Source: an uncultured Bacteroidota bacterium (GTDB lineage Bacteria > Bacteroidota > Bacteroidia > Bacteroidales > P3). From it: 64,000 nucleotides of DNA. This document shows positions 8,555-58,700 of the stretch, piece after piece. The notes beneath the pieces are model-generated. The model ran no database searches, was not told the DNA's origin, and worked only from the letters and a program-made list of their open reading frames with translations. Location: positions 62,001 through 126,000 of the forward strand of contig CADAWR010000007.1 in the NCBI GenBank assembly GCA_902791695.1, written 5' to 3'. Position 1 is the first letter of the stretch. Each line of letters opens with the position of its first letter. The position numbers were made by a program, and so were the translations under genes.

Positions 8555-8667
8555 ATTTTTGGGTATTTTTTTGTTCGTTTTAGGCTTTCTATGCGGTATT
8601 GAAAACGTATATATATTTAATTTATTGTATTGGAACGATATTTTTTTGCATTTTTTTTGTATTTCTG

Positions 8668-8795
8668 CCGTATCCTCTCCGTACCCTCTCCGTCTGTTCA
8701 CCGGTTGTTCTACTGTTGTTCGACGGTTTAAACCGTTAAACAATCGGTGAACAACCGGTGAACAGACGTAGAAGAGACGGAGGGGATAGGGAGGG
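8668..8795. repeat. Dispersed intergenic palindrome, copy A (11-nt units)
   Basis: Fills the divergent topA/nadE gap. The core is three 11-nt units from 8695 (TGTTCACCGGT, TGTTCTACTGT, TGTTCGACGGT), then the centre TTTAAA, then complementary units (ACCGTTAAACA, ATCGGTGAACA, ACCGGTGAACA). Outer flanks CCTCTCCGT on the left and GACGGAGG on the right extend the symmetry. Copies B-D lie at 19200, 26832 and 36617. The rest of 8555-8875 is AT-rich; near the nadE start there is only a weak TATATTTT-like element. Confidence 0.85.
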
Positions 8796-19123: not shown

Positions 19124-19131
19124 CAAATATA
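19124..19131 (-). promoter_or_regulatory. -7 element for the DPP IV operon
   Basis: On the minus strand this reads TATATTTG, a match to the Bacteroidota -7 consensus TAnnTTTG, 36 nt upstream of the peptidase start. Confidence 0.6.
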
Positions 19132-19199: not shown

Positions 19200-19335
19200 G
19201 TAGCGCCAGTGGCGCTACGCCACCTCTCCGTCACCTCTCCGTCTGTTCTACGGTTGTTCTCCGACTGTTTAACGGTTTAAACCGTCGAACAACCGGTGAA
19301 CAACCGTCGAACAGACGGAGAGGGTACGGACCGGC
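19200..19335. repeat. Dispersed intergenic palindrome, copy B (11-nt units)
   Basis: Lies in the divergent gap between DPP IV and the SUMF1 lipoprotein. Left arm from 19244: TGTTCTACGGT, TGTTCTCCGAC, TGTTTAACGGT; centre GTTTAAAC; right arm ACCGTCGAACA, ACCGGTGAACA, ACCGTCGAACA; then GACGGAGAGGGTACGG. Its left flank carries a small palindrome at 19200-19218 with arms GTAGCGCCA and TGGCGCTAC. A related GCGCC palindrome flanks copies C and D. Confidence 0.85.
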
Positions 19336-19372
19336 AACGGAGAAATTATGTGTCCGGATTGAAAAAAAATAC

Positions 19373-19380
19373 TATTTTTG
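19373..19380 (+). promoter_or_regulatory. -7 element for the SUMF1 lipoprotein
   Basis: TATTTTTG matches TAnnTTTG, 22 nt before the chosen ATG at 19402. No convincing -33 TTTG at the usual 19-20 nt spacing. Confidence 0.5.
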
Positions 19381-26831: not shown

Positions 26832-26972
26832 CCGTACTCTCTCCGATGTCCCTCCGATGTCCCTCCGATGTCTCTCCGTATCCGCTCCGACCCCTCTCCG
26901 ACAAAAACCGTTAAACAACCGTAGAACAGTCGGAGCGGATACGGAGCGGAGTCGGAGCGCCACTGGCGCTCC
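26832..26972. repeat. Dispersed intergenic palindrome, copy C (divergent)
   Basis: Left part is a tandem array of 11-nt units related to CCCTCCGATGT (three near-identical), then CTCTCCGTATC and CGCTCCGACCC. The right part keeps two core units (ACCGTTAAACA, ACCGTAGAACA) followed by GTCGGAGCGGATACGGAGCGG. The left TGTTC-type arm is missing. Outer palindrome GGAGCGCCA / TGGCGCTCC at 26954-26972. Confidence 0.78.
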
Positions 26973-27028: not shown

Positions 27029-27059
27029 TTTGCCACATTAAAAATAATTCGTATCTTTG
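27029..27059 (+). promoter_or_regulatory. Complete Bacteroidota promoter (-33/-7)
   Basis: TTTG at 27029-27032, 19-nt spacer, TATCTTTG at 27052-27059. The best -33/-7 pair in the window, placed just before the candidate structured RNA. Confidence 0.8.
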
Positions 27060-36552: not shown

Positions 36553-36616
36553 CAAAAAAAAAATTCTCACCAAAGGTGAAAAAGTTTTTCTTCATCGACA
36601 TTGCACGGCCTCTTCG

Positions 36617-36752
36617 CACCCTCTCCGTACCCTCTCCATCTGTTCTACGGTTGTTCACCGGTTGTTTAACGGTTTTTATAGTAGAACAACCGGTGAACAA
36701 CCGTAGAACAGACGGAGAAGAGTCGGAGAGACGACGTGGCGCCGGCGGCGCT
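36617..36752. repeat. Dispersed intergenic palindrome, copy D (11-nt units)
   Basis: In the divergent aspA/redoxin gap. Left arm TGTTCTACGGT, TGTTCACCGGT, TGTTTAACGGT from 36640; right arm ACCGGTGAACA, ACCGTAGAACA ending at 36711; outer flanks CCCTCTCCGTA and GACGGAGAAGAG. A GCGCCG/CGGCGC palindrome follows at about 36740-36752. The rest of 36474-36845 is AT-rich leader DNA. Confidence 0.85.
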
Positions 36753-36845
36753 ATGGTGGAGGAGGGGTGGCCTGTTGACAAACTGTTTATTTCTTTTATT
36801 TGTAAAGATACAATATAAAATGGAGCGAAGCGTTTTTATAACCGT

Positions 36846-58546: not shown

Positions 58547-58700
58547 CGTTACAGCGTTACAGCGTTACAGTTCATTTTGTGGTTATCCTATCTGCTAAAA
58601 ATAGTCCTTATATCTATATATTATAATATATAGATATAAGAATTCAATTTTGACTTTTGGAATACCTGTTTTGGAACTGTAACGCTGTAACGCTGTAACG
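58547..58700. repeat. 154-bp symmetric nested palindrome
   Basis: Outer arms are 27-bp perfect inverted repeats, 58547-58573 (three CGTTACAG units plus TTC) and 58674-58700. Exactly centred between them is a 34-nt perfect palindrome, 58607-58640 (CTTATATCTATATATTA and its complement). Both share the same midpoint at 58623/58624. The inner spacers are only loosely symmetric. No coding frame. Confidence 0.9.

Follow-up and report, generated by a model that had tools for sequence, protein, structure and literature searches.

What kind of element is an inverted array of 11-nt units that recurs in the gaps between genes, and what keeps it there? The question comes from an original prediction made on the 64,000 nt of Bacteroidales DNA analysed here (the whole of which we call the window), which described four copies (A to D) of a dispersed intergenic palindrome and considered selection for a cruciform or an RNA hairpin, or else a recent REP-like spread. 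Copies A, B and D are indeed built as described, with inverted arms of 46-62 nt that are 81-89% complementary and consist of 11-nt units in phase with the centre. A full copy comprises, in register, at least two outer units (CTCTCCGTACC, CKCTCCGTCTG), three core units (TTCTACGGTTG, TTCACCGGTTG, TTTAACGGTTT) and TTTAAA, followed by the mirror image. The outer flanks that had been noted are present, but they are not separate from the units: the CTCTCCGT letters are 11-nt units too, and the whole of about 110 bp is a single 11-nt-phased array, the ends of which fade out. Copy C had been given the same build, which does not hold; it is one-armed, with core units on one side only, next to AAAAACCG; outer 11-mers such as CTCCGTATCCG pair to give the stem and enclose both the core units and AAAAACCG. 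This second, one-armed class recurs genome-wide.

Table 1. Coordinates of the array copies and of the associated features in the window.
Feature	Position	Strand	Context
Copy A, full inverted 11-nt-unit array	8668..8795	.	topoisomerase I gene (-) / NAD synthase gene (+), divergent gap
Copy B, full inverted array, TTTAAA centre	19222..19336	.	DPPIV-like peptidase (-) / FGE-sulfatase (+), divergent gap
Copy C, one-armed (type 2)	26832..26962	.	co-directional gap
Copy D, full inverted array	36610..36732	.	fumarase-type lyase (-) / thioredoxin-like (+), divergent gap
-7 promoter motif TATATTTG	19124..19131	-	between copy B and left gene
-7 promoter motif TATTTTTG	19373..19380	+	between copy B and right gene
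-7 promoter motif TATCTTTG	27052..27059	+	downstream of copy C, directed away from copy C
Accessory GC-rich inverted repeat GTAGCGCCAGTGGCGCTAC (GTAGCGCCASTGGCGCTAC type)	19200..19218	.	abuts copy B
Accessory repeat, similar to that of copy B	26954-26972		abuts copy C
Accessory repeat, weaker	about 36736-36755		abuts copy D

The location of three of the four copies in divergent gaps is confirmed, copy C being the co-directional one, and the eight genes flanking A to D are unrelated according to their Pfam names (topoisomerase I, NAD synthase, peptidase, FGE-sulfatase, fumarase, and others). The GC-rich accessory repeat found at B, C and D is palindromic as well, but shorter than the arrays that it adjoins. 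At 8555-8667, the position of copy A upstream of the DNA topoisomerase I gene would be of interest if the arrays were supercoiling-responsive. Elsewhere in the window, at 58547-58700, CGTTACAG units with an 8-nt step form a perfect inverted repeat of 27 nt (arms 100 nt apart), the letters of which bear no resemblance to the 11-nt arrays.

Chance can be excluded as the origin of the arrays, as the unit pattern TGTTCNMCGGTTGTTC (up to 2 mismatches) matches the window 12 times where 0.13 would be expected, and the outer pattern (up to 3 mismatches) matches it 15 times where 0.12 would be. Four copies was an undercount. A search of the genome with copy B gave at least 80 strand matches (best 40 of 137 candidates scored), and a covariance model built from 45 copies pointed to at least 77 distinct strong places (hand count among the best 150 strand matches of 995 candidates, E<2e-22); the dispersed, multi-copy, intergenic nature of the family stands, and the further copies on which the original prediction had staked itself do exist. 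We then read 829 kb continuously, i.e., 38% of this genome, with gene calls from our own script and with scan thresholds set while viewing the data, and counted 53 elements, 35 full (>90 bits) and 18 partial or one-armed. The family accounts for 46 of the 56 strongest quasi-palindromes in these 829 kb, and none of the 54 outer-unit pair matches is more than 150 nt away from an element. This genome also has a dispersed inverted repeat of another, GAGCCCCGYAGGGGCG-like type, at C3:28946, C3:90109 and C2:242633. Copy B has no match in phage or plasmid records; as a side observation, four IMG/VR viral contigs carry the unit pair of this genome. In line with the original prediction, no named element was matched in Rfam (searched with the window) or in the phage and plasmid records, and no description of such arrays was found in the open-access literature.

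Where do the elements sit relative to genes? They occupy 50 of 266 eligible gaps, never two in the same gap, and these gaps are divergent (24), co-directional (20) or convergent (6), with an excess of divergent ones (24/50 occupied vs 68/266 eligible). Our gene-calling script placed 2 of the 53 elements inside genes, both as a result of over-long start calls; copy A is not intragenic, since its neighbours are the topoisomerase I gene and the NAD synthase gene, and as for the element at C3:199620, the first likely start (199541) of the tyrosine recombinase-like gene is downstream of it. One more element, next to the end of a contig, has a single neighbouring gene. It may be mentioned in passing that the C3:199620 element is one-armed and just upstream of what is likely an Xer-type tyrosine recombinase gene (family assigned by eye).

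The -7 promoter motif of Bacteroidota is TAnnTTTG. It is found between the element and the start codon, directed towards the gene, at 48 of 73 start sides (43 forward vs 3 reverse in the last 140 nt), at 4 of 32 stop sides, and within 1 of the 53 elements. As the motif stands between element and start codon, the elements as a rule precede the promoters and do not belong to the 5' UTRs of the neighbouring genes, a placement that argues for a role at the DNA rather than the RNA level. We consequently consider it very improbable that the arrays act as transcribed hairpins, be it as terminators, mRNA stabilisers or structured RNA. Strong hairpins are predicted (although folded as DNA) and one inner pair tolerates G-U-type changes, as such RNAs would, but the elements typically precede the promoters, 24 of the 50 occupied gaps are divergent, so that an element there is not covered by the transcript of either neighbour, and Rfam recognised tRNA only in the window, with no structured-RNA family at the arrays.

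Over the 829 kb, the 49 neighbour intervals average 15.4 kb with a minimum of 5752 nt; none of them is shorter than 5.5 kb, where 14 to 15 would be expected under four nulls (including class-matched gaps), and their coefficient of variation (CV) is 0.54 vs 0.96-0.99. None of 3000 permutations under each of the four nulls reached the observed minimum-spacing count or CV. Full copies alone also leave no interval below 5.5 kb (P 0.0007 or less), with a CV of 0.85 that is not more even than chance (P about 0.23); evenness is thus a property of both classes together. None of the 18 partial or one-armed copies falls within 5.5 kb of a full copy, vs 5.2 expected in random free gaps (P=0.001). The CV goes down to 0.49 after adding three arrays made of other units, a value that leaves out a fourth, low-complexity sequence-blind call at C2:63466, 4 kb from an element. 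The sister species RUG12227 gives a CV of 0.36 over 20 intervals, a single interval of more than 60 kb being left out, with one interval below 5.5 kb.

We also used a sequence-blind scan, which rates each position by how palindromic it is and by how well the sequence matches itself at a set lag; this combination, with a lag of 11, is a simple finder for such arrays. In the DNA of this genome and of its first relatives, it made 95 calls at lag 11 (none in shuffled DNA) vs 5, 5, 2, 0 and 7 at lags 9, 10, 12, 13 and 14. Among other members of the genus, G012 has 8 lag-11 calls in 100 kb, four of which are near-perfect TATTACGGTAG arrays, and G023 has 4 in 100 kb, with 4 at lag 12 as well. G113, which we picked for its many matches to a TTYNAC skeleton and which is therefore not a random sample, has 22 lag-11 calls in 320 kb vs 2, 6, 3 and 0 at lags 9, 10, 12 and 13. 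Its units (TTGTCCAGTCG, TTGTACAATAT, TTGTCCGCTTG, AAACTTTGGTA) are other sequences, and still all 22 arrays are intergenic (13 divergent, 7 co-directional and 2 convergent gaps), the promoter motif is directed towards the gene at 19 of 33 start sides vs 1 reversed, no interval out of 21 is below 5.5 kb vs 6.5 expected (0/5000), and the interval CV is 0.52 vs 0.91 expected. About 207 kb from other families gave 5 calls, in AT-rich DNA scoring equally at other lags. Some members of the genus may lack the system, as 9 of the 16 genus genomes sampled (G001, G004, G014, G015, G016, G021, G024, G107 and G132) have no lag-11 call in the 4 to 40 kb taken from each. A pattern confined to one clade, with 4 of 120 genus genomes rich in arrays, was an idea suggested by the unit pattern of this genome (75-110 matches in 4 of them, 1 match in 1, none in 115) that the sequence-blind scan proved too narrow.

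Is the pairing of the two arms itself under selection? A first arm test gave large z values, an artefact of mixed registers; restricting the comparison to copies in one register (34 of 46 copies kept here, 18/24 in RUG649, 7/17 in RGIG6226, 9/14 in RUG12227) removed it for the core units here. In this genome, an arm matches its own partner at core units 2-3 only as well as it matches the arms of other copies (z 0.0, n=34). A consistent mismatch marks the innermost unit pair (z -5.7), since TTTAAC usually stands opposite TTCGAC; compensation is present at outer unit 4 (z +4.0). Units 2-3 do compensate in RUG649 (z +4.1, n=18), weakly so in RGIG6226 (z 2.3, n=7), and not in RUG12227 (z 0.7, n=9). 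Arm complementarity is, thus, mostly a by-product of the shared unit, plus some true mirroring. The arm compensation that the original prediction relied on, and the lack of which it took as contrary evidence, is therefore seen in units 2-3 of RUG649 and, in this genome, in the outer unit but not in core units 2-3 or the innermost pair.

These results bear on cruciforms, which would be extruded under negative supercoiling between divergent promoters and serve as supercoil buffers or as substrates of structure-specific proteins. Copies A to D, folded as single-stranded DNA, do so far better than shuffles (z -9.5, -10.3, -5.5 and -12.1, respectively), one G012 and two G113 arrays are paired at 47 of 47 positions, and both the mirrored changes and the excess of divergent gaps are as one would wish. 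Selection for a cruciform as originally put forward nevertheless keeps only part of its ground, the perfect pairing in G012 and G113 being set against the partial covariation and the central mismatch maintained here; in addition, the one-armed class obeys the same spacing rule and nothing about a cruciform requires an 11-nt period. We regard it as improbable.

Are the same places occupied in related species? Where both genes flanking an occupied gap here could be mapped, the orthologous gap holds an element in 12/12 cases in RUG12227 and 6/7 in RGIG6226, vs 1/42 and 0/29 for control gaps without an element here (Fisher, 4e-11 and 4e-6, respectively). In the reverse direction, 13 of 16 RUG12227 and 3 of 4 RGIG6226 elements have a partner here, counting elements with both flanks mapped and leaving out those with one or none; a doubtful pair, C2:187244 here / G109C6:77094 in RUG12227, is outside the limits set for the comparison with control gaps. 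A RUG649 copy has its right flank in the same gap as window copy B. The species sharing these addresses are roughly 75-95% identical in aligned flanks. What occupies an address can differ: C1:57091 is a full copy here and one-armed in RUG12227, C1:64674 is the reverse, C3:96658 has CGGTTG units here vs TTCAGTAG units in RGIG6226, and RGIG6226 has a chimeric copy at C3:248738, one arm being of the CGGTTG type and the other of the TTCAGTAG type. The unit consensus of RUG649 copies is particular to that genome, as is that of RGIG6226 copies, in which an arm often contains four core units. In RUG12227, some 51-55 kb (C5, about 99000-153000) are missing from this genome at the same place; no profile match falls in this extra segment, and the sequence-blind scan made a single weak call there, at 143632. 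Polysaccharide, AMP-ligase and AAA-ATPase families are represented among ten of its genes.

The main rival explanation is a MITE-like non-autonomous element, the ends of which would be arrays of transposase-binding units, with target immunity spacing the insertions, a preference for promoter-upstream DNA keeping them intergenic, and ectopic gene conversion keeping the copies alike. The high copy number with a species-specific unit consensus, the homogeneity of the one-armed class, the chimeric RGIG6226 copy (G075C10:191278), with one arm per unit type, and a minimum spacing such as immunity would produce are all in line with it. We nonetheless find it rather unlikely, as the addresses are kept across these diverged species, the spacing rule holds across classes and unrelated unit families, and the two unshared sites that were aligned turned out to be rearranged gaps, with no clean empty site and no target duplication. 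The Y1 (RAYT) transposase, which it had been proposed to look for in linkage with the arrays, has no match in this genome (PF01797, 0 matches in an assembly 95% complete), while being present in 19 of 25 genomes searched (RUG649, RGIG6226 and RUG12227 are not among the 25). The transposase families sampled were PF01797 and the Mu-type C-domain PF09299, a search in which no control genome matched. Were the arrays mobile elements with target immunity after all, they would be a rare case of immunity acting across whole genomes and unit families.

Dispersed bacterial palindromes are usually interpreted as mobile debris or RNA hairpins. According to PMC3733652, REPs are single stem-loops of 20-40 bp with a GTAG or CGTC tetranucleotide at one end, the CGTC type being seemingly without dedicated transposase and having Bacteroidetes among its listed phyla; in PMC12306157, also on REPs, the main text mentions Bacteroidota once, in one table row. 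Like REPs, BIMEs and REPINs (PMC3733652), our arrays are dispersed intergenic palindromes, many per genome, with a species-specific consensus; unlike those 20-40 bp stem-loops, they are about 110 bp long and made of iterated 11-nt units, they are evenly spaced upstream of promoters at addresses kept across species while the sequence is replaced, and this genome gave no match to a Y1 transposase. The recent REP-like spread once envisaged fits poorly with positions common to sister species. Closer to home in Bacteroidales, the BrickBuilt MITE of Porphyromonas gingivalis is likewise intergenic, dispersed, tandemly built and stem-loop-forming (PMC4596501), but has 23-nt units, 19 copies, a leader and a tail with terminal repeats and, in some cases, target duplications; even spacing is not described for it in the sections of PMC4596501 used here.

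A third family of explanations takes the arrays for operators at which an OmpR/PhoB-type global regulator would recognise 11-nt direct repeats upstream of promoters. In the account of PMC4415409, the PHO box consists of two 11-nt direct-repeat units of 7 conserved and 4 less conserved letters, and it shares with our arrays the tandem 11-nt units upstream of promoters; the unit heptamer GTTCACC is even that of the S. coelicolor PHO box. PHO boxes are, in that account, the direct repeats of a regulon, whereas we are dealing with evenly spaced mirror arrays all along a chromosome. Even spacing and one array per gap are not what one expects of a regulon, the genes beside A to D are unrelated, 6 of the 50 occupied gaps are convergent, and the unit letters change at fixed addresses. 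Regulator operators thus appear quite improbable to us. PHO boxes act on phosphate genes via PhoB/PhoP, and the Pfam names of the eight genes beside A to D suggest no phosphate role.

What is kept, then, is an 11-nt phase, a two-fold symmetry, a minimum spacing of about 6 kb and a mean of about 15 kb, while the sequence is free, and this is why we favour, albeit tentatively and at slightly less than an even chance, chromosome-organising anchor sites for a predicted DNA-binding protein. Even spacing, shared addresses, replaced units and the 11-nt period all lead to this reading; even spacing and conserved position are both expected of an anchor site, and both were found. The 11-nt step fits a protein reading one face of the DNA, as the original prediction had proposed. 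The predicted protein would bind the arrays along one helix face with one contact per turn, each arm loading several copies and the two arms facing each other; one anchor per chromosomal domain of 8-20 kb would set the spacing, and gene conversion via the shared outer units may keep the units of one genome alike. A few observations speak against anchor sites, namely a pair of RUG12227 elements only 4.0 kb apart, 42 calls at lag 8 in the DNA of this genome and its first relatives, the 9 of 16 sampled genus genomes with no lag-11 call, the chance-like CV of full copies taken alone and the small similarity of unit letters between species; the arm covariation (outer unit here, units 2-3 in RUG649) counts against a pure binding array, which needs none.

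Familiar relatives of an anchor site would be the parC centromeres of R1-type plasmids, with their 11-bp ParR repeats, and matS, a chromosomal anchor site. They resemble our arrays in having iterated units that load an oligomeric protein, or sites for chromosome handling that are scattered; the difference is that here the geometry is kept and the sequence is not. Position and geometry conserved with the sequence turning over is the reverse of what ordinary binding sites and repeats do. A further proposal, which we hold to be possible but somewhat short of an even chance, is that the chromosome is addressed by geometry, with an array every 8-20 kb, selection acting on phase, symmetry and spacing, and letters replaced wholesale, per locus and per species, so that unrelated unit families would do one job, even in one genome. 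If the arrays are anchors, they would provide a dense map of chromosome domains that is visible in the sequence, and domain size could be tested from sequence alone, in a genus represented here by metagenome assemblies (all genomes with record titles being of this type).

The unit letters of different species share little (TTCTACGGTTG, TTCAACGATAC, TTGTCCAGTCG, TTGTACAATAT), which makes one sequence-reading protein unlikely for all of them. We had considered a universal skeleton, TTYNAC followed by a 5-nt linker; it failed in G113, where no such pair cluster was found in 320 kb and the units are TTGTCC.. and TTGTAC.. instead. Triples of the TTYNAC skeleton are nonetheless present at least once in 68 of 120 genus genomes and five times or more in 32, vs 3 of 120 with five or more for the reversed pattern (hand count). 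Outside the genus, five or more triples were found in 4 of 246 sampled genomes (G187, G225, G301 and G315), among which G225 and G315, from another family of the order, have tandem 11-nt arrays of TTTAACTCCCC / TTTTACTCCCC.
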